From Allomuricauda sp. CAU 1633 (GTDB taxonomy: Bacteria > Bacteroidota > Bacteroidia > Flavobacteriales > Flavobacteriaceae): DNA of 64,000 nucleotides. Below, piece after piece: positions 118-11,072 of this stretch. The notes below the pieces were generated by a model, which was given only the letters and a program-made list of their open reading frames with translations, had not been told where the DNA came from and did no database searches. Made by a program: the position numbers and the translations under genes. The stretch lies in assembly GCF_017313225.1 (NCBI RefSeq), contig NZ_JAFLNE010000001.1, forward strand, positions 1-64,000, given 5' to 3'. Numbering within the stretch: the first letter of the stretch is position 1; each line of letters begins with the position of its first letter.

Positions 118-135
118 ATCGTTATTTTGAACTTT
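118..135 (-). repeat. Array junction motif, copy 1
   Basis: ATCGTTATTTTGAACTTT on the + strand, two differences from the consensus ATCGTTTATTTGAACTTT. It lies 8 nt from the stop of the gene at 144-641 and 8 nt from the start of the partial lipoprotein. Confidence 0.75.
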
Positions 136-143
136 ATTAATCC

Positions 144-641
144 TTAGTTCTTATCCAAAAACTTTTCAATCGGTAAATAAGGCATTTTATGCCAAACGTA
201 TTTCTCCTGTAAGTTCCATTCATTTATGTTACTAATTGGGAGTTTAAATTTTTCAACTATTTTTTGCATATCCGAATTACAATCGAACAACATAACGCTA
301 TCATTTCGAATGATAAAACATTTGTTGCTTTCAGGTAATTTTTGAAAGAAATCACCTTGACGTATTTGTTCATTGACCTCACAATCATGACCAATAGAAA
401 CGGTGGCTGTATCCTTTTTGAATGAGATATATTTTCTATTTGAATTTACAAACTCAATCGATAGACCACAACCTTTCCAGAGTTCCTTGTTTTTAATAAC
501 ACCAGCTCTTTGAATTTGGTACTCTTCGAAATAATAATCTTTCATGGATGGATTATCCCATGGTCGACCTAATATGAAAAGGAACACAAGAAACAGAATT
601 GGAAGTGCAACCAAAATTTTTATTCCTGGTATTTTAGTCAT
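144..641 (-). CDS. Hypothetical single-pass membrane-anchored protein
   Basis: A 165-residue protein with one N-terminal hydrophobic segment at residues about 8-25 (ILVALPILFLVFLFILG) and a polar remainder of about 140 residues, most likely facing the periplasm. Cysteines in the polar part (GCGLS, GHDCE, KCFII, FDCNS) may pair. I recognise no family. It sits between two copies of the junction motif and is read in the same direction as all other array genes. The ATG at 639-641 is the first in frame and gives a sensible membrane anchor. Confidence 0.6.
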   Translation of the reverse strand: MTKIPGIKILVALPILFLVFLFILGRPWDNPSMKDYYFEEYQIQRAGVIKNKELWKGCGLSIEFVNSNRKYISFKKDTATVSIGHDCEVNEQIRQGDFFQKLPESNKCFIIRNDSVMLFDCNSDMQKIVEKFKLPISNINEWNLQEKYVWHKMPYLPIEKFLDKN

Positions 642-672
642 GTTATGTTGATCTTGCTTTCTGGATTTACGA

Positions 673-690
673 ATCGTTTATTTGAACTTT
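673..690 (-). repeat. Array junction motif, copy 2
   Basis: Perfect ATCGTTTATTTGAACTTT. It begins 8 nt past the stop of the gene at 699-1592 and lies 31 nt upstream of the start at 641. Confidence 0.85.
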
Positions 691-698
691 TGATCAAA

Positions 699-1592
699 CT
701 ACCTACTGGGTGTCATTATCCCGTCTTGTGACTTGCCTAGTTTTAAATTAACAAGTATTTCATGCAATGTTTCTGTGGCAAGCCCATGAAGAACGAGTCT
801 GTAAGCTGCAGTATAGGTGGAAGTTGGCACCATAGGGTGTTTATTGTTCACAAGTCCCAAATGTCCAGGCGTACCAAGGATTTGTGTAGTGTAAATAGCA
901 ACCGTTTCGTCTAACTGGAGTGAATTTGAAGCCCTGACAAAATCGTTTACCGTTAGAAAAAGTTGATAGAAAGGTGTAAACAGTTCTATGGCAGACCTTA
1001 AATCCAGAATGTTTGTCCATCTACTCGGAAATTCGATATGGTTAAACTGATCCTCTGATATCATTTCCAAATTGAGGGATTCCTGTTTTTGTATGTTCAA
1101 CCCCTTGCTTTTGAGTTGGCTATTCAGGTTTATTACAAAATTGTACAGGTTAAGATCATGATTTAGGAATAGATCTTCCTTCACATCCTCGAAATCAAAT
1201 GGTTTAAGTGGGCTTGTTTTTACCTCTATACCCGATATATTCTTGGCTATGAACTCCAAAATTTCACTGCCTGCATGAAAATGCCTGAAAATGAGCAAAT
1301 TGGCGTCAGGATTCACGAAATTCTTCAACCCCCATGCTAAAATTTTGTGCAAAATACTGGAAGAGTTGAAAAGCTTCGGAAAGAAAAACTTAAAGGCATG
1401 AATGAAAAACATAGAGATTTTCGACCAAAGCTGGATAAACGGCAGAAGGTATCGCGTGGACCTACTGTTATTGTCCCTCATCAGGGCTTGCTTTGTTTTG
1501 TTGTTTATGGGAATACTGCTGTCCAGATACATTGCAAGCCAAGGGTTTGGGTCCCTTTGGTCGTGCTTTCCAATATCAAATTCATCGCTCAT
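699..1592 (-). CDS. Unrecognised partner of the ketosynthase fusion
   Basis: A 297-residue protein with no signal peptide but a hydrophobic, aromatic-rich stretch at about 47-75 (LLPFIQLWSKISMFFIHAFKFFF) suggesting membrane association. Several histidines (FRHFHAGSE near 103-109, FNHIEF, NKHPMV, LHGLATETLHE) are spread through the chain. I do not recognise the family. It starts only 9 nt after the stop of the ketosynthase/oxidase fusion at 1602-3452, and no junction motif separates the two, so they are probably co-transcribed and act in one pathway. This is the only motif-bounded interval with two intact genes. Confidence 0.6.
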   Translation of the reverse strand: MSDEFDIGKHDQRDPNPWLAMYLDSSIPINNKTKQALMRDNNSRSTRYLLPFIQLWSKISMFFIHAFKFFFPKLFNSSSILHKILAWGLKNFVNPDANLLIFRHFHAGSEILEFIAKNISGIEVKTSPLKPFDFEDVKEDLFLNHDLNLYNFVINLNSQLKSKGLNIQKQESLNLEMISEDQFNHIEFPSRWTNILDLRSAIELFTPFYQLFLTVNDFVRASNSLQLDETVAIYTTQILGTPGHLGLVNNKHPMVPTSTYTAAYRLVLHGLATETLHEILVNLKLGKSQDGIMTPSR

Positions 1593-1601
1593 ATGCTCAA
1601 T

Positions 1602-3452
1602 TTAGTAATTTCCCAGTTCTTTTAATTGCAAATGGTAAAGAAGAGCTGTGGTTTTGGCCGTCTTTGCTATTTTACCGGCTAGATCCAAATTCATAAGAGG
1701 ATGGTTCAAAGCTTCCTCAAGTCGATGGAAATGATTTTCATCCGCTACACCGTGATAGGTTAGAAATGATACTTGGGCGTTGCTCAAATTAAGCTGGTCC
1801 TGAATGAGTTCGCCCCAATAACCGGCTAAGCGCTTTCCTATTCCCTCAATGATGAACATGGCACCTAATAGGTCAATTGGGTTTGGTTTACTTGCTTGTT
1901 GAAACATAAAGGATGATAAAGCAATACTCCCGATGTTTTTTTCGCTATTCCTTATTTTTTCTAAGGGTTCTCCCAAGGCAACGTAATTCGATTCCAATAG
2001 CTGATAGTCTTTGTGTTCAGTTGCCGTATGCTTTATGAAAGCTGAACGCAGTTCAAATAAGTCAATATCAATGTTGGAGGCTGCCCTGGAGATCCATTGT
2101 GACCCATCGATTACCTGTTGTCTTAAATCTAGCAATAAAAGTTTATAATCGTCAAGGCCCAATGTCCCGTCATGTATTTTTCTGACTATGGGTACTTGTA
2201 GGAGTTGGGTTTCGAAATCAATCCATATTTGGCTAAGCTGTCTAACCAACCATTCTGAAGTTGGGTTTTTAATGATTTCAAGTTCTGGTGCTTCGACTTT
2301 TCTTATCGGATACTTCGTCAAACCATTTTTTTCATTCCCCACCACACTCAACTTCATAAACGATGTGATGAACCTTCCACTTTCGGGAACCATACAAAGA
2401 ATGGTCTGACCCGGCTTCAATTTTCCTGAATACATAAGCTCTTCCAACATTATGTAGATTGAAGCGGCACCTGTATTACCCTTGCTTATCAAATTACTGA
2501 ACCATTTTTCTTCCGGAATATACGCTCCGCCTTTTTCAAGAAGTTCCTGGATTGGTTTTTTGAAAAATTCAGAGGAATAATGGCAGCAAAGCCAATCTAC
2601 TTCCTCCGTAATAATTTTTCCGACATCAATTAATTCAAAGTAATGGGAGACGCCAACTTTCATGACTCTTTGAAGAAGACGAACATCCTGCTTTAAATTA
2701 ATTGCGCCTGCTTTTGATGCGGATTCATAATCGGGATAGTCAAGCCAACTGGAGATATTACCATTAGATGTGCCACTGGGGCCGACATACATACAGAGAG
2801 GGTGGTCATTGGCATATGATTTAATATCTATCCATTCGATTTTGAGGGATAGCCCATCAATATTTGGTTTGTTTTCCAATACCATAGCGCCAGCACCATC
2901 CGATAACATCCATCTAAGGAATTCAGTGTCAAAAGGAAGGGAGGTTTGTCCTTGGGCCTCAAACCTTGAAGCTTTGAACAATCTGCTGGCAAACTCACTT
3001 CCGATACAAAGTGCATTTTGCTTTTCATTGGCTTTTATTTGACAATAACCGCTTTTCAAGGCCATTATCCCACTTGCGCAAACACTTTGGAAATTTGCAA
3101 GTTCACACTTTGGGGCTCCGAGTGCTGCATGTACCATGCTTGCAAAACCAGGGACTGGGAGATCTCCTTGTGTTGTCCCTGTGGATATCATCTGAATGTG
3201 GTCATCTAAAACAGAGCTTCGTCGAAGGGCAGTCTTTGAAGCCATCGCCGCCATTTCGGCATTGGAATGTGTACTTTTCTGTTTCTTGTCAAGGGCATAA
3301 TACCTATGCTTAATTCCATTTTGCTGCAGTATTTTGGTTTTTAAAGTACTGGGCGCCCCATTAATCTCACCCAAATACTCCTCCATTTCATGATTTGGTA
3401 TAGCCTCGTTAGGGAGAAAGGCTCCCAAAGCATTGATATATACATCACTCAT
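1602..3452 (-). CDS. Ketoacyl-ACP synthase III-like / HDO-like diiron oxidase fusion
   Basis: 616 residues in two parts. Residues 1-370 form a KAS III/DarB-StlD-like thiolase fold with the full Cys-His-Asn triad: Cys125 in SVCASG, His291 in CCHYSS and Asn326 in GNTGAAS. Such enzymes perform Claisen condensation of acyl thioesters. Residues about 395-616 are all-helical and resemble the heme-oxygenase-like / iron-containing redox enzyme superfamily, with candidate ligands His475, Glu479, His480, Glu536, His567, Asp571 and His574. Known members of that superfamily (e.g. UndA, SznF) carry out oxidative chemistry on acyl or amino substrates. The fusion suggests that a condensed acyl chain is passed directly to an oxidase. 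The product is unknown. It is by far the largest gene of the array. Confidence 0.75.
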   Translation of the reverse strand: MSDVYINALGAFLPNEAIPNHEMEEYLGEINGAPSTLKTKILQQNGIKHRYYALDKKQKSTHSNAEMAAMASKTALRRSSVLDDHIQMISTGTTQGDLPVPGFASMVHAALGAPKCELANFQSVCASGIMALKSGYCQIKANEKQNALCIGSEFASRLFKASRFEAQGQTSLPFDTEFLRWMLSDGAGAMVLENKPNIDGLSLKIEWIDIKSYANDHPLCMYVGPSGTSNGNISSWLDYPDYESASKAGAINLKQDVRLLQRVMKVGVSHYFELIDVGKIITEEVDWLCCHYSSEFFKKPIQELLEKGGAYIPEEKWFSNLISKGNTGAASIYIMLEELMYSGKLKPGQTILCMVPESGRFITSFMKLSVVGNEKNGLTKYPIRKVEAPELEIIKNPTSEWLVRQLSQIWIDFETQLLQVPIVRKIHDGTLGLDDYKLLLLDLRQQVIDGSQWISRAASNIDIDLFELRSAFIKHTATEHKDYQLLESNYVALGEPLEKIRNSEKNIGSIALSSFMFQQASKPNPIDLLGAMFIIEGIGKRLAGYWGELIQDQLNLSNAQVSFLTYHGVADENHFHRLEEALNHPLMNLDLAGKIAKTAKTTALLYHLQLKELGNY

Positions 3453-3518
3453 ATTAAACAGCCTTCTTTTATTGCCGGTTTACAATATATATTTACCCGC
3501 AATAGAATTGAGGGTCTG

Positions 3519-3536
3519 ATCGTTTATTTGAACTTT
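3519..3536 (-). repeat. Array junction motif, copy 3
   Basis: Perfect consensus. It lies 12 nt past the stop at 3549 and 66 nt upstream of the ketosynthase start at 3452. Confidence 0.85.
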
Positions 3537-3548
3537 CTATTTCTAAAA

Positions 3549-3797
3549 TCACCAAATCCAATCTATTAGGAAGCCTAATGCAATCATAAATATTATTGCC
3601 ACAAACCCATTATTGAATAGATGGTGTCTGTCATAATAATCCTTTGATTTTTTTGGTCCCCACAAGTATTCTTTATAAGTGAATTTAGGTTTATTCAAAA
3701 TAGTTCTCCAGACAGATCCATAAATCCAGCGTAAAGTACCTCCAATGACATTCACTATTAAATGAAATAGAGTGTATCCAATAACTTCATCTATCAT
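3549..3797 (-). CDS. Small membrane protein
   Basis: 82 residues with two hydrophobic stretches, one at the N-terminus (about 5-22) and one at the C-terminus (about 63-80, FVAIIFMIALGFLIDWIW), separated by a basic, aromatic polar loop. No family is recognised. The ATG at 3795-3797 lies 5 nt from a junction motif. The size and topology match several other products of this array. Confidence 0.55.
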   Translation of the reverse strand: MIDEVIGYTLFHLIVNVIGGTLRWIYGSVWRTILNKPKFTYKEYLWGPKKSKDYYDRHHLFNNGFVAIIFMIALGFLIDWIW

Positions 3798-3802
3798 ATG
3801 AA

Positions 3803-3820
3803 ATCGTTTATTTGAACTTA
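3803..3820 (-). repeat. Array junction motif, copy 4
   Basis: ATCGTTTATTTGAACTTA, one difference. It overlaps the stop codon of the gene at 3818-4213 and lies 5 nt from the start at 3797. Confidence 0.85.
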
Positions 3821-4213
3821 TCTATTAAGAATTGAATCTCTGTAATCAATCCATTTTTGTAAATCTCCTTTCGACTTTTCAACATCAAAGAAGAAAGGAC
3901 TAGAACCATCTGACGCTTTTAATTTAAGGCTGCTCAAAATATTTCCGATACATGGCATCGCAAGTTCATTTCCTCTTATATGCATTACGAAACTATTGAA
4001 ATCCTCAGATTCACCCATATTAAACTCAATTGAGAATTGTCCGTTCTCCAATATCCCCCATGATGGATTTGAAAAATCTACCGTAGGTTCAACTGTCTTG
4101 ATCTTATCAATGATTTCTGACCTCATACCAATTGATTTTGGTTCAAAGTCATCGGCAATCTCATCCAAAGAATCAAAATCCCCCCAATCTTGCACGAACA
4201 AATCCCAACTCAT
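3818..4213 (-). CDS. Conserved small cytosolic protein, immunity-like
   Basis: 131 residues beginning MSWDLFVQDWGDF, with internal ADDFEPKSIG, FSNPSWGILE and FSIEFNMGE. I recognise this pattern as a widespread conserved hypothetical family whose members start MSWDvFVQD; I know no proven function. It is acidic, soluble and of a size usual for immunity proteins of polymorphic toxins (inference from context). The frame stays open upstream to 4315, but that extension would run into the neighbouring gene and across the junction motif at 4223-4240, so the ATG at 4211-4213 is preferred. Confidence 0.7.
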   Translation of the reverse strand: MSWDLFVQDWGDFDSLDEIADDFEPKSIGMRSEIIDKIKTVEPTVDFSNPSWGILENGQFSIEFNMGESEDFNSFVMHIRGNELAMPCIGNILSSLKLKASDGSSPFFFDVEKSKGDLQKWIDYRDSILNR

Positions 4214-4222
4214 TTTGACACT

Positions 4223-4240
4223 ATCGTTTATTTGAACTTT
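4223..4240 (-). repeat. Array junction motif, copy 5
   Basis: Perfect consensus. It lies 2 nt past the stop at 4243 and 9 nt from the chosen start at 4213, and it supports that start choice. Confidence 0.85.
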
Positions 4241-4242
4241 AT

Positions 4243-4659
4243 TTAAAACCATCCTATAAAATATACCAAACCAACTACAGCCAAAAACAAGACGAATATT
4301 ATTAGTGCTAAACATCCCAAACCAAATAATTTATCCTTCCATGAATCTTTTAAGGGTTTCTCAATATTAATTTCAGATTTGAATTTTCGGGTAATTTGAA
4401 AATAATCAAATGGATTGTTTTCTTGGCTCTGGACCCATTCAAAATTTGGATGGTACATTTCAGTATCCCCTTCATTAAAGGTTCTTAGTTCTATTTCTTT
4501 TGCAGCTTTCAAAAGTTCTACAGAATACAATAGTAGCCCATCCTTATTTCCCTTTGCATACCCAAAATCTTCATTAAATGAATAATCAAAGTACGCATTT
4601 TGTCTGGAGCTCTTTGACTCTATTTCTTCTATTAATTTCTCAAGCTCTGGGTTGGTCAA
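4243..4659 (-). CDS. Hypothetical tail-anchored membrane protein
   Basis: 138 residues with a charged, probably cytosolic N-terminal domain and a single strongly hydrophobic C-terminal segment at about 112-135 (LFGLGCLALIIFVLFLAVVG). The start is a TTG at 4657-4659: a stop lies three codons further upstream and no ATG occurs before the middle of the protein. The start is therefore the least certain part. No family is recognised. A diverged junction motif lies 28 nt upstream. Confidence 0.5.
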   Translation of the reverse strand: MTNPELEKLIEEIESKSSRQNAYFDYSFNEDFGYAKGNKDGLLLYSVELLKAAKEIELRTFNEGDTEMYHPNFEWVQSQENNPFDYFQITRKFKSEINIEKPLKDSWKDKLFGLGCLALIIFVLFLAVVGLVYFIGWF

Positions 4660-4687
4660 AACTTTATTTATTTGGTCTTAATTGTGA

Positions 4688-4705
4688 ATCGATTATTTAA
4701 ACTTT
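4688..4705 (-). repeat. Array junction motif, copy 6
   Basis: ATCGATTATTTAAACTTT, two differences. It overlaps the terminal TAA (4704-4706) of the interrupted TIMP-like gene. Confidence 0.7.
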
Positions 4706-5210
4706 ATAGTTTTATACGGTCCCTTCTCCTTCTCAAGGCATAAATTTCATCTGCCAAATCCATTCTACGCTCTTTCCACAATTCTGAGTATAATTTATCT
4801 TCAGTCATGTTGCCTTTATCTTTAGCTTCCTTTTTTTCAGAATTTGATGGAGGAGCGGTTGGTTTACCAAAAGCTCTGCTTAATCCTCAGATGTTCATTT
4901 TCAAGAATTCATTTTCCATTCGTCCATAGACGAGCCAAAAGCCCTCTTCCTCAACATAAGGCTGGCAAGATTTCCAATTTTTTCCGATATAGATATTGTC
5001 TTGTAGGTCCCCACCATCCAATGATTCTATTACCCTTATTTTGTAAGTCAGGTCACTATTTATTTCAATGATTTCCCCAATAAAAATACATTCAGAAATC
5101 TCAATTTCCTTTGTTTGAAGTTCAGCCAAACTTTTAAATCCACAATCACACGCAAAAGTATATTGGGTCAATATCGATAAAAATGTGAATGTCCAGATTG
5201 ATTTCTTCAT
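4704..5210 (-). pseudogene. Secreted TIMP-like (CxC) protein interrupted by an in-frame TGA
   Basis: From the ATG at 5208-5210 the frame encodes a signal peptide followed at once by CDCGFKSL (Cys21, Cys23), then SECIFIGEI and a beta-rich segment, like the N-terminal OB-fold of TIMP/netrin domains. The frame stops at TGA 4887-4889 after residue 107. The same frame then stays open for 60 more codons (GLSRAFGKP ... LYSELWKERR ... RRRRDRIKL) to TAA at 4704-4706, which abuts a junction motif. As I recall the flavobacterial family, a Cys is expected exactly where the TGA falls (NI-C-GL). A Cys-to-TGA nonsense change in a protein of about 168 residues is the simplest reading. A separate 34-residue gene from the ATG at 4808 is less likely. 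Confidence 0.6.
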
Positions 5211-5226
5211 CGTTTATTTGAACTCA
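5209..5226 (-). repeat. Array junction motif, copy 7
   Basis: ATCGTTTATTTGAACTCA, two differences. It includes two bases of the ATG at 5210 and lies 5 nt past the stop at 5232. Confidence 0.85.
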
Positions 5227-5231
5227 GCTAT

Positions 5232-5552
5232 TTAAATACCCACTATTTTCATTTTCCAGAAATAGATAATCAAGGTTATAATTCCAACTACAATTGTCAC
5301 CATACTTTTTTTAAAACCTTTTGCCAACAGCATTAATGACAGCCCTAAGACCAGAATAATGCCTCCAAGGTAGATAGGTTGATACAGTTCAGTCAAAATT
5401 GATTTTTGACTGTCCAATCCATCTAGTATATGAGTGGAAGTATCGTCCAAAACATAGAATACGCCTAAAAGCATAAAAAGAACCCAACCAATGAATACGT
5501 TTGCAATTACTGAAATCCAATTCTCTATTAAGTAATTTTTTAGCCGATTCAT
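5232..5552 (-). CDS. Small three-helix membrane protein
   Basis: 106 residues with three hydrophobic segments at about 13-35, 60-77 and 83-102. The short loop between the first two is acidic (LDDTSTHILDGLD). No recognised family and no catalytic motif. The ATG at 5550-5552 lies 4 nt from a junction motif. Expected location is the inner membrane. Confidence 0.55.
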   Translation of the reverse strand: MNRLKNYLIENWISVIANVFIGWVLFMLLGVFYVLDDTSTHILDGLDSQKSILTELYQPIYLGGIILVLGLSLMLLAKGFKKSMVTIVVGIITLIIYFWKMKIVGI

Positions 5553-5556
5553 TTAA

Positions 5557-5574
5557 ATCCGTTATTTGAACTTT
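5557..5574 (-). repeat. Array junction motif, copy 8
   Basis: ATCCGTTATTTGAACTTT, two differences. It lies 4 nt from the start at 5552 and 18 nt past the stop at 5593. Confidence 0.8.
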
Positions 5575-5592
5575 TTATATAAAAATCAACAT

Positions 5593-5841
5593 TCACCATT
5601 CAAAAAATTTAATATAAGGCCAACCATATTTTACTGCTAAACTTGTGTATATTAAGGTCAAACCAAGTATTAACAATATAATAAAAAGTGGTAATTCATA
5701 ATACTTTGTGATCCAATAGGAATAATCAGAGTTTGGGTCTTCATTATATTCGGAATAAAGTTTTTTAGTATCCTTTTGAAAAAAAGCGAATGAAATTATT
5801 CCAATACTAGCTATAATGGTTAATACGATTCCTTCTTTCAT
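5593..5841 (-). CDS. Small two-helix membrane protein
   Basis: 82 residues with an N-terminal hydrophobic helix (about 5-20), a polar tyrosine-rich loop (YSEYNEDPNSDYSYWITKYY) and a second helix (about 50-70). The ATG at 5839-5841 lies partly inside a junction motif, so translation begins at the motif itself. Function unknown. Confidence 0.55.
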   Translation of the reverse strand: MKEGIVLTIIASIGIISFAFFQKDTKKLYSEYNEDPNSDYSYWITKYYELPLFIILLILGLTLIYTSLAVKYGWPYIKFFEW

Positions 5842-5857
5842 CGTTTGTTTGAACTTT
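5840..5857 (-). repeat. Array junction motif, copy 9
   Basis: ATCGTTTGTTTGAACTTT, one difference. It contains two bases of the ATG at 5841. The distance to the stop at 5900 (42 nt) is the longest among the intact junctions. Confidence 0.85.
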
Positions 5858-5899
5858 TATATCCCAAGCACTTCAAAAGTGCACTCACTTAGGGGCATT

Positions 5900-6319
5900 T
5901 TACTTTTTAAACTCTGATGGGCTCTCTACAAATTCTAATTCTGACATCTCACAAACTCCGTATGAACCATCTAAATATTTAACCCCCACGATGTGTTGTT
6001 CTCCAATCATTTCAGCTTGAATAACTATAACAGGGGTTTTCTTATTTGTCTCAACATCAACTTGAAAAGCTAATGAAGGAAGCTGAATATCTAAAGGTTT
6101 ATGATCCTTCCCTTGACTGTCAATAATAAAAGTTGCAGAGCCAGCATTGACATCCATTTCCGTTGCTAATCGTCCTGATACATGAGGTGTTTCCATCCAA
6201 TTTTCTAAATCAACCTTATCCAAGATAGTTGTTTGCGAAACTATATTTGTTTTGTTTTCATTTTCTCTGCAACTCATTAAGAAAGCGCAAACAAGACCAA
6301 GCACTACTATATTCTTCAT
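5900..6319 (-). CDS. Hypothetical lipoprotein
   Basis: 139 residues with a type II signal peptide ending in the lipobox LMSC (Cys17). The mature part is polar, with a beta-rich look (SATFIIDSQGKDHKPLDIQL, VETNKKTPVIVIQAEMIGEQ). No family is recognised. The ATG at 6317-6319 overlaps a junction motif. It is most likely attached to the outer or inner membrane facing the periplasm. Confidence 0.6.
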   Translation of the reverse strand: MKNIVVLGLVCAFLMSCRENENKTNIVSQTTILDKVDLENWMETPHVSGRLATEMDVNAGSATFIIDSQGKDHKPLDIQLPSLAFQVDVETNKKTPVIVIQAEMIGEQHIVGVKYLDGSYGVCEMSELEFVESPSEFKK

Positions 6320-6335
6320 CGTTTAATTGAACTTT
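6318..6335 (-). repeat. Array junction motif, copy 10
   Basis: ATCGTTTAATTGAACTTT, one difference. It overlaps both the start codon at 6319 and the last base of the stop codon at 6335, so the motif is the entire intergenic region. Confidence 0.85.
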
Positions 6336-6772
6336 TAATTTTTCGAATTCTTGTTTGAAAGAGATTTTATCTTGTCTATGAAGGTAATTACCAACCCCAT
6401 TAAAACTAGTAAAGTTCCGTATAAAATGTCGTTTGAATTTTTGTATTCATTTATAAAGACAATTTTATTCCTTTTCAAATTTGTTAATACATCAACACTT
6501 TCCTTTCCAAAAACCTGTTCACAAATAAGTCGATTCCCGTTTTTCACAAAAACCATTCCATTGAATTCCAATTTGTAATAGCCCCCTCGTCTCCCTAAAT
6601 CATCACAATCCAATGGTGTCTCAAGAACCTTTGCAGATACAATCCTATTTTCCTCGGTTATTTTCTTTTTGATTACTCCATTCCTAATCACTAACAAGGA
6701 AACAAGAACCATAAAAAGTCCACCAATTTTTAAACCATACTTATTGAGAAATGTGTGTGATTTTGATTTCAA
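6335..6772 (-). CDS. Hypothetical two-helix membrane protein
   Basis: 145 residues: one hydrophobic helix near the N-terminus (about 15-30), a polar central domain of about 80 residues with paired cysteines (LDCDDLG, RLICEQ), and a second helix (about 115-133) before a basic tail. This topology would place the central domain in the periplasm. No family is recognised. The start lies 37 nt from the nearest motif. Confidence 0.55.
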   Translation of the reverse strand: MKSKSHTFLNKYGLKIGGLFMVLVSLLVIRNGVIKKKITEENRIVSAKVLETPLDCDDLGRRGGYYKLEFNGMVFVKNGNRLICEQVFGKESVDVLTNLKRNKIVFINEYKNSNDILYGTLLVLMGLVITFIDKIKSLSNKNSKN

Positions 6773-6809
6773 GTCAGTGTTATAAAAATAAGTTTGAAAG
6801 GCTATTTGA

Positions 6810-6827
6810 ATCGTTTATTTGAACCTA
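6810..6827 (-). repeat. Array junction motif, copy 11
   Basis: ATCGTTTATTTGAACCTA, two differences. It ends directly against the stop codon at 6828-6830. Confidence 0.85.
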
Positions 6828-7028
6828 TCATTTTTTCTTTGTTTTTTTCAAGCCTAGATAACTAGCAAAGTTTATAATTGCAATAAGCAAACATACCATT
6901 CTTACTATTTGAATGTCAATCGGCAATCCTCTGTAATAAAAGGGTCCTGACTGGAAATGAAGCCCAATAAAAACTAATGTGAAAACAATTCCAAGAATCA
7001 AGAAATGGTTCCAGTTTTCGCTTTTCAT
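6828..7028 (-). CDS. Small two-helix membrane protein
   Basis: 66 residues with two hydrophobic helices (about 8-24 and 42-60) and a short loop (QSGPFYYRGLPIDIQ), ending in a lysine-rich tail. Unrecognised. The ATG at 7026-7028 directly follows the decayed sequence at 7029-7170. Confidence 0.5.
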   Translation of the reverse strand: MKSENWNHFLILGIVFTLVFIGLHFQSGPFYYRGLPIDIQIVRMVCLLIAIINFASYLGLKKTKKK

Positions 7029-7170
7029 TTATGCCAAGAGCTTTTCAATTTTTTCACAATGAATGTCTACTTGTTCAAATCGTTTAAATAGACTTTTGCA
7101 TTTTTGATTTAGCCTTTCCCAAAGCTTCACGAAATTCCTTTAATTTCGGATGAACATCCCTTCTTTCTCA
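7029..7170 (-). pseudogene. Decayed coding remnant
   Basis: The minus strand here has two protein-like stretches in different frames and no intact start. One reads RDVHPKLKEFREALGKAKSK and ends at a TAA. The other, one base out of frame, reads LFKRFEQVDIHCEKIEKLLA and ends in TAA next to the gene at 6828-7028. Joined by a frameshift they give a plausible charged helical C-terminus. A diverged junction motif (7079-7096) lies within the break. This looks like the remains of one or two former array genes. Confidence 0.4.
7079..7096 (-). repeat. Array junction motif, diverged copy 12
   Basis: ATCGTTTAAATAGACTTT, four differences. It lies inside the decayed sequence at 7029-7170. Confidence 0.5.
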
Positions 7171-7401
7171 TTTGATTAGAGAATTAAAAACCTCTACGGC
7201 TTTATTTAGAACCCTTATTTCGTCCCGCACAGATTTTTCTTTACGATAGATAACTGCTAATCTCCTATATGGAAAACTTCCTACAAAATCTTCTGAAACA
7301 TTGGCTTCGTAAAGTGCTTTAGCTTCCTGGACCTTTCCTTCCTTTTCAAGTCGCTTCCCCATTAAATTTCTATCAACCTGTGTTTCGAAACTGCTCATCA
7401 T
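7168..7401 (-). CDS. Small TPR-like protein
   Basis: 77 residues from the ATG at 7399-7401 (a second ATG follows at once). The sequence EKEGKVQEAKALYEANV and FPYRRLAVIYRKEKSVRDEI matches the spacing of tetratricopeptide helices, so it probably forms about one and a half TPR repeats. The frame stays open upstream to 7434, but that extension would nearly touch the preceding gene. A gapped junction-like motif overlaps the start. Possible protein-protein adaptor; function unknown. Confidence 0.5.
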   Translation of the reverse strand: MMSSFETQVDRNLMGKRLEKEGKVQEAKALYEANVSEDFVGSFPYRRLAVIYRKEKSVRDEIRVLNKAVEVFNSLIK

Positions 7402-7413
7402 TATTTTAACTTT
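7397..7413 (-). repeat. Array junction motif, degenerate copy 13
   Basis: ATCATTATTTTAACTTT, one base short of the consensus. It overlaps the start codon region of the TPR-like gene and lies 26 nt past the stop at 7440. Confidence 0.35.
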
Positions 7414-7439
7414 ATCTAGATGTTTCAAGAACAAAAGTA

Positions 7440-7811
7440 TCAGGGGTTCATTTCCCTGACCAGATAGTATGTGAATCCAGATAGGAACATTATTCCCACG
7501 AAAGATATATCAATGATTATGGATTTTTTGCCAATATCCAATTTTTCCGTGCGCATAATTTCTGAACCATTTCCTTTAACCACAAAATAATAATAATTGA
7601 GTCCAAATAGACCAATAACCAAAAAGGTTCCTACATAATGAATCTTATAGAGCAATTTAAATCTCAAAAGAAGCAGAACAGAATTAAATCCAGTTATAAG
7701 GAGTGAAGTTATTAAGAATGCCATATACGATAAAACTGGAATTTCAGGAGAAGCATTTCGTTTTCGACTAACTCTAAAAAGGTTATAGTAAATCAGGTGG
7801 TAAATCCTCAT
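7440..7811 (-). CDS. Hypothetical multi-pass membrane protein
   Basis: 123 residues with about four hydrophobic helices (roughly 28-48, 55-75, 97-115 and a short preceding segment) and a basic N-terminus (YYNLFRVSRKRN). No family is recognised. The ATG at 7809-7811 overlaps a junction motif copy. Confidence 0.5.
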   Translation of the reverse strand: MRIYHLIYYNLFRVSRKRNASPEIPVLSYMAFLITSLLITGFNSVLLLLRFKLLYKIHYVGTFLVIGLFGLNYYYFVVKGNGSEIMRTEKLDIGKKSIIIDISFVGIMFLSGFTYYLVREMNP

Positions 7812-7827
7812 AGTTTGTTCAAACTTT
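7810..7827 (-). repeat. Array junction motif, copy 14
   Basis: ATAGTTTGTTCAAACTTT, four differences. It contains two bases of the ATG at 7811 and lies 13 nt past the stop at 7841. It is the last copy in array orientation before the recombinase. Confidence 0.6.
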
Positions 7828-7840
7828 ACTGAGTTTTCTA

Positions 7841-8353
7841 TCAGCTACCATATTCCTTGAATCGCTTAATTAGATCTGACATTAATTCATTGGACGTAAT
7901 TGGATAAATCACGCAACCAATAGAATTCCAATAGACTTTTTCTGATATTTTGTTTTCAGTTCTCAATACGGACTCTGCACTGTCCAGTTTATTGTTTTTT
8001 ACCAAAGCCCAAAATCCATAAACCCTTAAAGCTGGATTTTTGCTTTCCGCCATTTGTAGAAAATCTGACACATTCCCTCTCTTATATATCTTTTGAAAAA
8101 TACTATAGGATTCATTATCCGAGAAATTACGTTTAGATGAAACAACATTGAAAGTTGCATTGTCGTTGACCGTAAATTGAACTATTGGTGTCTCTAACTC
8201 AAATATTTCAGGTCGCTCATCATCAATATAGGTTGTATCAGTGACGGAAATTTCTAAGTCATGGACCAATGCTGCAATTCTTTTGACAGAATACTGCGAG
8301 TGAGCATGAGAAGCGCCCAATAATAGAAGTAAACAAAGAATGAGTCCTCTCAT
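7841..8353 (-). CDS. Hypothetical secreted protein
   Basis: 170 residues with a signal peptide (LILCLLLLLGASHAHS) and a mature domain that includes NPALRVYGFWALVKNNKLDSAESVL, a HEAT-like helical pattern of the kind seen in small periplasmic proteins of Bacteroidota. No enzyme motif is visible. The start at 8351-8353 is followed on the + strand by TTTGATTGTTAACTTG, at best a very weak relative of the junction motif. It is the array gene nearest to the serine recombinase. Confidence 0.55.
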   Translation of the reverse strand: MRGLILCLLLLLGASHAHSQYSVKRIAALVHDLEISVTDTTYIDDERPEIFELETPIVQFTVNDNATFNVVSSKRNFSDNESYSIFQKIYKRGNVSDFLQMAESKNPALRVYGFWALVKNNKLDSAESVLRTENKISEKVYWNSIGCVIYPITSNELMSDLIKRFKEYGS

Positions 8354-8430: not shown

Positions 8431-9039
8431 TCATCTTTTATACGATCTCAACTTTCCTGAAAGCCCCCTATGTCGTAAATACTTGTAATAGGTGGCCCTT
8501 GAAATGTTCAATCGTTCACATATCTCTGTAACGGCCAACACCCCGTTATTGAAATACTCCTCACAAAGTACAGCTTTTTGTTGATTTTTCTTACTTAATC
8601 CCTTTGGCGCTCCTAAAATCTTCCCTCTGCGTCTTGCCGATTCCAGACCTGCTTTCGTTCGTTCAATGATGATATCCCTTTCCAATTGTGCCAAGGCAGC
8701 AAATATGTTGATGATAAACTCAGAATGGGAAGACTTCTCTGTAGTGTCTATAAAAGGTTCTGTGATGCTCCTGAAACGGACTCCCTTTCCTTTTAACTTT
8801 GTCATTAGATTGGTAAAATGAATCAGGCTCCTTGCCAACCGATCAAGTTTCCAGACCACAATAGTATCCCCGTCCCGTACATATTTTAAAAGTTTACTCA
8901 AGCTTTTCCGCACTTCCTTGGTACTCGATACCTTATCCGTGTAAATGTTCTTTTGTGGAATCCCTTCTTTGAGGAGTGCATCCAATTGAAGGTCCAAACT
9001 TTGTTCCATGGTACTCACCCGTGCATATCCAAAAACCAT
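8431..9039 (-). CDS. Serine recombinase, resolvase/invertase family
   Basis: 202 residues. The N-terminal catalytic domain begins MVFGYARVST, with the nucleophile Ser9 and Arg7; the DRLARS motif and the long E helix (ALAQLERDIIIERTKAGLESARRRG) follow. The C-terminus (about 160-195, VTEICERLNISRATYYKYL) is a helix-turn-helix like that of Hin/Pin/Tn3 resolvases. Such enzymes cut both strands at short dyad sites and exchange them by rotation. It reads in the same direction as the array. Copies of the array motif in reverse orientation lie just upstream (9046-9063, 9132-9149), making the motif a candidate binding or crossover element (inference). Confidence 0.93.
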   Translation of the reverse strand: MVFGYARVSTMEQSLDLQLDALLKEGIPQKNIYTDKVSSTKEVRKSLSKLLKYVRDGDTIVVWKLDRLARSLIHFTNLMTKLKGKGVRFRSITEPFIDTTEKSSHSEFIINIFAALAQLERDIIIERTKAGLESARRRGKILGAPKGLSKKNQQKAVLCEEYFNNGVLAVTEICERLNISRATYYKYLRHRGLSGKLRSYKR

Positions 9040-9045
9040 AACCTG

Positions 9046-9063
9046 AAAGTTTAAATAAAGGGT
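9046..9063 (+). repeat. Inverted copy of the array motif
   Basis: AAAGTTTAAATAAAGGGT on the + strand matches the reverse complement of the array consensus (AAAGTTCAAATAAACGAT) at 15 of 18 positions. It lies 6 nt upstream of the recombinase start, in the orientation opposite to all array copies. Confidence 0.55.
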
Positions 9064-9094: not shown

Positions 9095-9140
9095 TTGAAC
9101 TTTAACAAACCAGTGGACACATTTTACATTGAAAGTTCAA
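9095..9140. repeat. Inverted repeat built from half motifs
   Basis: TTGAACTTT at 9095-9103 and AAAGTTCAA at 9132-9140 are perfect 9-bp inverted repeats separated by 28 nt, and each equals the most conserved half of the array motif. The single strand could fold into a hairpin. Confidence 0.6.
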
Positions 9141-9149
9141 TAAAACGGT
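9132..9149 (+). repeat. Second inverted copy of the array motif
   Basis: AAAGTTCAATAAAACGGT matches the reverse complement of the array consensus at 15 of 18 positions. It shares its left half with the inverted repeat above. Confidence 0.5.
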
Positions 9150-9290
9150 GCCTTATAACGCCCTGTCATGAAATGGAAATCGATATGGAGGCGAACGCAA
9201 CGAAGTGGAGTGCTGCAAGCCCCAAATCTTACACAAACTAATACTACTGAGCGAGGCAAATTTTGACCAACACTTGTACTTAATGGTCAT

Positions 9291-9779: not shown

Positions 9780-11072
9780 CTATGCTTCATTTGCTTTTCT
9801 TTTGGCACTTGATGCATTAGGAGATTCTAGTTTGCTTCTCAAAACTTCCATGTCCTCACTCACTTTTCTCTCTAAAACCTTGGCATATATCTGAGTTGTG
9901 GTAAGCTTACGATGTCCCAGCATTTTTGAAATGGTCTCTATAGGTACACCATTGGTCAAGGTCACAGTCGTAGCGAACGTGTGTCTAGCCATATGGAAAG
10001 TCAAATTCTTCTTGATTTTTGCTTCACTTGCAATCTCTTTCAAATAGGCGTTCATCTTTTGGTTCGATATTCTCGGAAACAAAGTATTGTTAATAATAGA
10101 CCTAGGATCCTCCTTATATCGTTCAATCAAGTCAAGAGCTTTTTTTAATAGCGGTATTTTTACCGGGTTTTGGGTTTTCTGCCTTTTGGTGATTATCCAA
10201 TATTCCTTATCCAAACCCATAACCACGTTATCTTCGGTAAGAAGCATTAAATCAGTATAACACACCCCTGTATAACAACTGAAGACAAAAAGGTCCCTGA
10301 CAGTTTTTAATCGCTTACTATGAAGTTTCAGTTTTTCAATGGCTTGAAGTTCCTCGGAACCTAAATATTCTCTGTTCGTAGGGGTCAGCCTCTGTTTAAA
10401 CTGCCTAAAAGGATCTTTATCTATCCACTCCAGTCGATAGGCCAGGGAGACCATTTTTCTCAGTCTTTGAATATGCTTCATTACAGCATTGTTACCAATT
10501 TGCTTTTGATAGTGATTAGGTTTATGCTTGCGAAGAAAATTTTCAAAGTCAAGGATAAACTTATAGTTCAGTTCATCAAGTCTGATGTCTTCCAATTTTA
10601 ATTTTGTTTTCAAGAATAAAAAGATATACTTCTGGCTTGTCAGGTAGAGTCTTGAGGTATTTCCGTGGAGCTTGGGAAACATATTGGAATTATGGTAGGA
10701 TACCAAGTCCCTCATGGTAAAATGTTGATTTTCCACTTCCTCATCCATAAATCTGGCCTTTACACTATGAGGGGTAATGTGCTTACCCTCTATTCGCAAT
10801 TGTTGAAATGATTGGAACAGTCCTGAGTAAAACTCATCAAGGTACTGATTGATGGATTTAGCATCAATAGTAGAATTCTTTACCCGCTGCCTTTCGGGGT
10901 CCCAGTAATTGATTTTGATTCTCCGCTTTAAACTAATGTTTAGTTTTTTACCATTGACAGAAATCCTAGCATAAATAGGGGCTTTGCCATTTTTTGACCT
11001 AGCGGAATAAAGCCAAAACAGGACGGAAAAAGTGGAATTTGACCTCATAATTGTCTTCTTTTTGTTAAACAT
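9780..11072 (-). CDS. Tyrosine recombinase (CTnDOT-type integrase)
   Basis: 430 residues with the three-part layout of Bacteroidota integrases: an arm-binding domain (about 10-100, with RSKNGKAPIYARI), a SAM-like core-binding domain (about 115-220) and a catalytic domain (about 235-410). Visible catalytic features are HMARHTFAT (HxxR), LGH and the nucleophile Tyr in TTQIYAKV. The usual first Arg position reads TGVCYTDL, i.e. Cys instead of Arg; loss of this Arg is known in CTnDOT-like integrases, so the enzyme may be active. The gene sits about 200 bp from the 3' end of tRNA-Arg(CCT), the usual place for an integrase that recombines at a tRNA attachment site. It should catalyse insertion and excision of the island to the left. 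Confidence 0.93.
   Translation of the reverse strand: MFNKKKTIMRSNSTFSVLFWLYSARSKNGKAPIYARISVNGKKLNISLKRRIKINYWDPERQRVKNSTIDAKSINQYLDEFYSGLFQSFQQLRIEGKHITPHSVKARFMDEEVENQHFTMRDLVSYHNSNMFPKLHGNTSRLYLTSQKYIFLFLKTKLKLEDIRLDELNYKFILDFENFLRKHKPNHYQKQIGNNAVMKHIQRLRKMVSLAYRLEWIDKDPFRQFKQRLTPTNREYLGSEELQAIEKLKLHSKRLKTVRDLFVFSCYTGVCYTDLMLLTEDNVVMGLDKEYWIITKRQKTQNPVKIPLLKKALDLIERYKEDPRSIINNTLFPRISNQKMNAYLKEIASEAKIKKNLTFHMARHTFATTVTLTNGVPIETISKMLGHRKLTTTQIYAKVLERKVSEDMEVLRSKLESPNASSAKRKANEA

Follow-up and report, generated by a model that had tools for sequence, protein, structure and literature searches.

Which enzyme moves the small genes that lie, one after another and punctuated by a single 18-bp motif, at the beginning of contig NZ_JAFLNE010000001.1 (C1) of Allomuricauda sp. 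CAU 1633, and at which point of the motif does it act? The stretch analyzed here, called the window, comprises positions 1-64,000 of this contig, and its start is the contig start. We propose that these genes form one arm of a mobile array of cassettes, and we consider it probable that strands are exchanged at the AT dinucleotide of each half-site by the serine recombinase encoded at the array head, hereafter S. With somewhat less assurance, we favor a broader scenario, in which a plasmid serine dimer resolvase became a gene-capture engine: a half-site with an AT core, ending arbitrary genes, would represent an independent invention of the integron, by which hundreds of unrelated small genes are traded among marine Flavobacteriaceae, often within tRNA-linked islands. 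Three patterns read from the sequences argue for these proposals: units are exchanged at the motif, S stands at the head of the arrays in a clade-specific manner, and the motif resembles one half of the crossover site of this resolvase family.

On the gene strand, the motif reads AAAGTTCAAATAAACGAT. With up to 3 mismatches it has 13 matches in the window versus 0.19 expected from shuffled sequences (largest shuffle count 2). Eleven of them are co-oriented between 118 and 6827, each with at most 2 mismatches, while two more (9046 and 9132, 3 mismatches each) are inverted and lie just ahead of the gene for S. The original prediction, made from the letters of this DNA, had counted at least 12 good and two weak copies, all in one orientation. 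The array is real, but it comprises 11 good copies and three weak ones (7079, 7397 and 7810, with more than 3 mismatches); the common orientation holds for the 11, and the inverted copies had been missed. The sites and the recombinase are the following:

118..135, minus strand: cassette site, 2 mismatches
673..690, minus strand: cassette site, exact
3519..3536, minus strand: cassette site, exact
3803..3820, minus strand: cassette site, 1 mismatch
4223..4240, minus strand: cassette site, exact
4688..4705, minus strand: cassette site, 2 mismatches
5209..5226, minus strand: cassette site, 2 mismatches
5557..5574, minus strand: cassette site, 2 mismatches
5840..5857, minus strand: cassette site, 1 mismatch
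6318..6335, minus strand: cassette site, 1 mismatch
6810..6827, minus strand: cassette site, half-site AAAGTTCAAATAAACG plus AT core on the gene strand, 2 mismatches
7079..7096, minus strand: weak, probably decayed cassette site, not within 3 mismatches
7397..7414, minus strand: weak, probably decayed cassette site, not within 3 mismatches
7810..7827, minus strand: weak cassette site nearest the recombinase, not within 3 mismatches
8431..9039, minus strand: array-head serine recombinase S, 202 aa, resolvase/invertase family (PF00239, HTH_7), in head position in 34/43 genus loci
9046..9063, minus strand: second inverted motif copy, directly before the start codon of S, accessory-site-like
9132..9165, minus strand: resolvase site-I-like crossover site upstream of S, with a degenerate half, an AC core and a strong inverted half (CGTTTTATTGAACTTT)

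One interval holds two genes, as had been predicted, but it is the second (673-3519) and not the first. The reported geometry, with the motif near the preceding stop and at a variable distance from the next start, extends to 641 small units, in which the median distance is 11 nt from the stop to the next site and 18 nt from the site end to the next start (75th percentile 58), the starts being roughly placed at the first start codon of the longest open reading frame (ORF).

To what extent are the units mobile? Forty-seven arrays were cut into 298 units and compared all against all, and strict pairs were defined as units from different genomes with at least 85% identity, near-equal length and at least 90% cover; pairs between L206 and L207, which represent one array in genomes G004 and G042, were excluded from the flank test. 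In 35/35 strict pairs the homology stops at the motif on both sides, with identity at the level of chance (0.18-0.47) over the 60 bp beyond each of the two motifs, although several pairs come from one cassette family and hence do not represent 35 independent events. A larger set of 767 units yielded 289 homologous pairs, of which 132 are letter-identical, mostly because one region was fetched twice; among the 286 with readable flanks, both flanks are unrelated in 144. The window contains ten complete intervals, and four of these are found again in other species, at 90-97% identity and among different neighbors:

3803..4240, minus strand: cassette common to L238/G004, 97%
5209..5574, minus strand: cassette common to L209/G021, 90%
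5840..6335, minus strand: cassette common to L205/G057, 97%
6318..6827, minus strand: cassette common to L205/G057 (92%) and, inside a longer unit, to L267/G028 (92%)

The last two, adjacent in the window, are separated by about 7 kb in G057 (L205). These comparisons, made with one genome per species, indicate that the units are mobile and exchanged unit by unit at the motif, and they lend support to the earlier reading of the region as a gene-capture array: single units are common to genomes, with junctions at the motif and unrelated neighbors. The anticipated clean insertion or deletion of single motif-gene units is borne out as regards the junctions, but gain or loss between conserved neighbors was encountered once, and weakly (L146 vs L097, where the second shared unit is 76% identical). 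A strictly conserved gene order, which would have spoken against cassettes, was not found: of 104 conserved neighbor pairs, 92 have an identity of 99.9% or more, in most cases because the same region was retrieved twice, and 12 are less similar.

The motif is also unevenly distributed. With up to 2 mismatches it occurs 40 times in the 4.26 Mb of the genome, versus once for a reversed control pattern, and 37 of these matches are clustered on contigs C1, C5, C8, C16 and C17, contrary to the possibility, raised by the original prediction itself, that it marks ordinary operon junctions genome-wide. The assembly probably breaks within arrays, since the window begins at the contig start and more array pieces lie near the ends of C5, C8, C16 and C17. 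With at most 1 mismatch, the motif is present, as an array or a single copy, in 60/71 genomes of the genus, compared to 10/296 sampled from the order and 9/395 from the phylum; both latter counts include the source genome, and the remaining genomes have single matches except G361 (seven). Exact copies were seen, among the matches listed, in Allomuricauda/Flagellimonas, Maribacter, Aquimarina, Arenibacter, Pricia, Ulvibacterium and Euzebyella. Ten near-complete genomes contain 15 clusters of at least three sites (one array, in G004 and G042, is counted twice), two pairs and 18 solitary sites. Six viral contigs (L164-L169) hold an exact copy, and the array of Aquimarina pacifica (L097) mixes two variants of the motif, AAAGTTCAATAAAACGAT-like and AAAGTCTAAATAAACGAT-like, perhaps reflecting two site specificities.

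If units are exchanged at the motif, where within it does the exchange take place? With the positions numbered 0-17 on the gene strand, positions 0-7 of the 3'-side site agree in 37 shared-unit families (8.3 mismatches versus 29.5 expected), whereas those of the 5'-side site disagree in 45 families (35 mismatches versus 36 expected), which ties the left half to the upstream gene; positions 8-17 also follow the upstream gene more often than the downstream one. For the most part, the motif moves together with the gene that precedes it, in agreement with its predicted role as a 3' cassette-recombination site. In a likelihood comparison the best single boundary falls at positions 16-17 (18 at the middle identity cut), i.e. 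at AT, and family bootstraps place it at 16 or 17 in 415/500 cases and at 10-12 in 69/500. Thus, AT at the outer end of the motif is the likely exchange core, with a right half that is not clean. The imperfect dyad GTTyAwwTrAAC, earlier put forward as the core, fared worse as the exchange point: a crossover at its center is 18, 13 and 8.6 log units worse at the three identity cuts, and a 2-bp window at the same place is 13, 11 and 7 log units worse; the dyad center matched or beat the AT core in 16/500 bootstraps.

A further indication of the nature of the motif comes from the region upstream of S. Between loci, homology begins at the inverted motif about 110 bp before the start codon of S and is mostly absent to its left, where some loci share a repeat-like stretch. 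In L304 and L309 the upstream site is a full palindrome, composed of a half-site, a 2-bp core and an inverted half-site. In the platforms of the genus the left half is degenerate yet motif-like (7.3/16 positions versus 4.2 in controls; the P value of 8e-18 is too strong, as some left flanks are related), and the core beside the strong half is AC in 47/50 sites and GC in 3/50. An independent test is provided by plasmid resolvases: those with 46-53% identity to S, taken as the first 7 of 4,803 plasmid records (two Aureispira, three Runella, one Phocaeicola and one Pseudomonas), exhibit two inverted motif-like copies around a 2-bp core in 7/7 cases; these palindromes lie about 110-138 bp upstream of the gene and match at 21-27 of 32 bases, a score reached by 0-3 of 1000 shuffles each. 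Since these plasmid relatives carry inverted motif pairs upstream, we regard the motif of the arrays as a likely half-site of this resolvase family. No motif array was found within the 2.4-31 kb examined around each of the seven plasmid resolvases. One phage resolvase and eight more distant chromosomal ones showed no clear match to the motif, and L311 and L313 share with the motif site only the inner TAAAACG-GC-CGTTTTA.

The protein itself has the composition of a resolvase or an invertase, with a catalytic domain (PF00239, E 1.4e-40) and a C-terminal helix-turn-helix (HTH_7, PF02796), both above the cut-offs; its best relatives in the PDB are a DNA-invertase (4m6f, E 6.4e-36) and gamma-delta resolvase (2gm4, E 1.5e-28). 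Among the 43 loci of the genus, at least two co-directional sites follow S in 34, one in four and none in five; as these loci were picked for holding S, some in broken copies, 34/43 is not the share of arrays with S, and the nine with fewer than two sites include L222, L230 and L235, which are cut by contig ends. Both L206 and L207 were retained in this count, in that of the platform left ends and in that of the clusters. An unbiased figure is provided by the ten near-complete genomes, where a gene of the S clade lies within 10 kb of 9/15 clusters (five intact, four broken). In 299 genomes of the family, 15 contain a relative of S at E 1e-35, the source genome included; 17 of the 18 places outside the source genome were examined, a partial match in G493 being left out. 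The S-clade loci of other genera (L300-L309) carry at least two sites in 10/10 cases with up to 3 mismatches and in 8/10 at the limit of 2 mismatches that was applied to the genus; the S gene of L302 contains a stop. L310 (52% identity to S, also with a stop) has no array, and six recombinases at 39-47% identity lack a co-directional site; the stretch examined for L315 reaches no more than about 3 kb past the recombinase. On average, genomes with an S-clade match contain 12.2 sites (n=34, none with zero) versus 3.6 in those without (n=36, ten with zero; P 6e-7, uncorrected for phylogeny, G041 left out). In a tree of the recombinases, the array-associated ones form two large groups that are separate from the distant sequences, although many forks are open, several long branches are unsure and L214 is unplaced; four members of these groups (two cut by contig ends) show no array. 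No co-evolution of the site letters with the recombinase subgroups was seen. Two S genes free of internal stops, in L215 and L236, have no recognizable array in the stretch examined, and L033 (about 1416-1604, contig C17) contains a piece of S, from its C-terminal end, that starts at a site of the array, as would be expected if two arrays had joined.

According to the mechanism we propose, a platform would comprise three parts, namely the gene of the plasmid-type serine resolvase S, the crossover and accessory-like sites that precede it and, downstream, a site that receives cassettes, while a cassette would be a small gene (sometimes two) ending in one 16-bp half-site of S followed by the AT core. 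S would bind the half-site at the cassette end and exchange strands at AT with another such site, and a cassette located between two co-oriented sites would be cut out, presumably as a circle, and inserted at another site. The weakest step of this model is the assumption that single half-sites suffice. The cores of the cassette sites (AT) and of the platform sites (AC or GC) differ, and this may keep the two site classes apart.

How does the platform end, and how does it travel? Many loci have a common trailer after S. In L223, L228, L232, L233 and L245 its end is a motif-like site, beyond which homology ceases and the first cassettes differ; in many other loci this site is weak or unrecognizable. 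Several platforms (L245, L273, L276, L279, L266 and L270) have lost most of S and kept the sites. L245, L276 and L279 apparently share one internal deletion with the same junction, and that of L273 is similar; because of this shared junction, a non-autonomous platform seems to spread. Among the 52 listed left ends of platforms, 24 have a tRNA gene within 4 kb upstream and in the same direction, often with an integrase of the type of Y1, the tyrosine recombinase of the window, in between. In the window, a tRNA-Arg gene (about 11280) next to Y1 lies 2129 bp upstream of the left end of the platform. Several tRNA-linked islands share a repeat-like stretch between the Y1-type gene and the platform, and one array block, in which two exact sites are separated by 3,200 bp, recurs in three species (L261, L269 and L271 in G025, G031 and G034), with a tyrosine recombinase about 10 bp past the last site in L261 and L271. 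Two genes in the vicinity of S in the window are:

7841..8353, minus strand: first gene after S, 170 aa, no convincing family, between S and the first weak site
9780..11072, minus strand: tyrosine recombinase Y1, 430 aa, probable tRNA-site integrase of the array island (PF00589, PF17293, PF13102)

Several observations weigh against the assignment of the cassettes to S. Known resolvases use two half-sites, whereas the cassette sites show no conserved second half-site to their right. The cassette core AT and the platform cores AC and GC may not recombine together. The cores of the plasmid palindromes vary (AC three times, AA, TG, CG and CC), and these palindromes come from four genera only. Six of the 15 clusters have no S gene in cis, and four of the remaining nine have a broken one; among the six, the left end of the platform is kept in four (L244, L262, L272 and L273), and nothing of it in two. 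Positions 8-17 of the motif are mixed, with a mismatch ratio of 0.40 with the upstream gene and 0.70 with the downstream one, and an exchange window of about 11-17 fits slightly better by likelihood than a point. Finally, a tyrosine recombinase is found beside many arrays, and a tyrosine-type overlap would likewise blur the inheritance of the right half of the motif.

The last points lead to the principal rival, which we nonetheless regard as unlikely: that Y1 or a relative moves the cassettes, as in the rAID arrays discussed below, and that S serves dimer resolution or is a passenger. Genes similar to Y1 do occur upstream of many platforms and, in L244, L261 and L271, 10-17 bp past the last site; some arrays (L246, L262, L268 and L272) have Y1 without S, and the variable positions 8-14 can follow either neighbor, as an overlap of 6-8 bp would allow. 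However, relatives of Y1 are found in 66/70 genomes of the genus (E 1e-60), including some without any site at 1 mismatch, while many S-headed arrays show no relative of Y1 in the stretch examined, usually 4 kb upstream. In S-headed loci the nearest upstream recombinase is S, with Y1 further out in some, and Y1 heads a few S-less arrays. The location of Y1 by tRNA genes is that of an island integrase, and the motif resembles half of the crossover site of the serine family itself. On the basis of the model comparison and the plasmid sites, we prefer the outer AT core over a tyrosine-type overlap at positions 8-14, and we take Y1 to be the island integrase and S the cassette enzyme.

A recombinase acting in trans, such as host Xer or another unlinked enzyme, which would recognize the sites while S has the half-site in common with them solely through the descent of the platform, appears quite improbable. 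It would account for the sites in genomes that lack an S-clade gene and for the S-deleted platforms that retain sites and cassettes. On the other hand, S-less genomes have fewer sites, all ten zero-site genomes compared are S-less, and the S-deleted platforms are explicable by S acting from another copy. Still less probable is a classical integron with degenerate attC sites, despite the integron-like architecture and the one protein among 121 scanned that matches the integron cassette family Hfx_Cass5. No attC-like fold is apparent: in up to 60 sampled sites, the 100-nt stretches of the gene strand have a mean z of 0.03, versus -0.40 inside genes. Y1 scores 52.8 bits with the integron integrase model TIGR02249, far below its cut-off of 265, and a search for IntI in 70 genomes of the genus at E 1e-40 gave no match, the control genomes being silent as well. 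We rejected this candidate for the want of folded sites and of an IntI-like head gene, as had been foreseen in the suggestion that a system other than the classical integron built the array. A regulatory or RNA element at operon junctions, compatible with the closeness of the motif to stops and starts, is scarcely credible and was likewise rejected, given the exchange of units between genomes at the motif, its clustering and the lack of a stable fold.

We return to the proposal of cassettes exchanged by S to consider what they carry. The 641 cassette ORFs, from a set without units above 1.8 kb, form 404 clusters, including 261 singletons, with a median length of the representatives of 149 aa; a longer antisense ORF is present in 25/690 units of up to 1.8 kb. 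The 121 proteins scanned for families, drawn from clusters with at least two members (up to 70) and from singletons picked at random (60), did not include those of contigs C5, C8, C12, C16 and C17 of the source genome. Among the first 25 of 78 Pfam families are the ParE toxin, SUKH-1 (in at least 1/121 proteins), RhuM, GNAT and glyoxalase, and the PADLOC matches include candidate defense families. The cargo is mixed, and immunity and membrane functions, tentatively predicted for the array, are not its only classes. An unusual cargo for an array of small genes is carried by the two-gene interval, whose second ORF has a long C-terminal part beside a beta-ketosynthase domain of the StlD/DarB type (best scores short of the curated cut-offs, some of them narrowly):

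673..3536, minus strand: two-gene cassette, ORFs 699-1592 and 1602-3452

How do these arrays compare with known systems? Integrons likewise combine a recombinase platform with small genes that each end in a recombination site and with very diverse cargo, and their cassettes are exchanged unit by unit at a recurrent site, as is the case here. However, integrons use the tyrosine integrase IntI at the head and attC sites that fold as single strands, whereas here the head gene is a PF00239 serine resolvase, the site is an 18-bp half-site without a fold, and the recombinase reads in the same direction as the cassettes. With serine resolvases and invertases, such as gamma-delta/Tn3, Sin, and the Gin-like and Mpi-like enzymes, S shares the protein family and the order of a crossover site and then accessory-like sites before the gene. 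The known members resolve or invert at full sites, unlike the single half-sites that end many genes here. Among the matches listed in our literature search there was no serine-recombinase cassette array, subscription papers being largely outside its coverage. The dif modules of Acinetobacter are alike in that gene modules are flanked by short sites and common to several replicons, but they depend on the XerC/XerD tyrosine recombinases and pdif sites (PMC9455709). The rAID (recombinase-associated acquired interbacterial defense) arrays of gut Bacteroidales, described as co-oriented short genes with intergenic motifs and a tyrosine recombinase, and as an area of active research with respect to their biogenesis (PMC12247911), resemble our arrays in the head recombinase, the co-oriented short genes, the conserved intergenic motif, the phylum and the SUKH-1 cassette. 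They are defined by the tyrosine recombinase, in contrast to the clade-specific head gene for a serine resolvase, the motif similar to half of its crossover site and the broad cargo found here; this comparison concerns architecture, recombinase and cargo. Orphan immunity genes against T6SS effectors are a further mark of rAID arrays, for which SUKH-1, in at least 1/121 of our scanned proteins, would be a candidate counterpart. Our proposal, which remains a reading of genomic sequences, bears on how rAID-like arrays are built, and, if true, tools for gene assembly could make use of a short and simple site. A reservoir of small genes in marine bacteria, for the most part uncharacterized, is opened up as well (toxin-antitoxin, SUKH, candidate phage-defense and others). 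As integrons and rAID are both tyrosine-based, cassettes handled by a serine resolvase would mean that gene-trading arrays arose more than once, with different chemistry.

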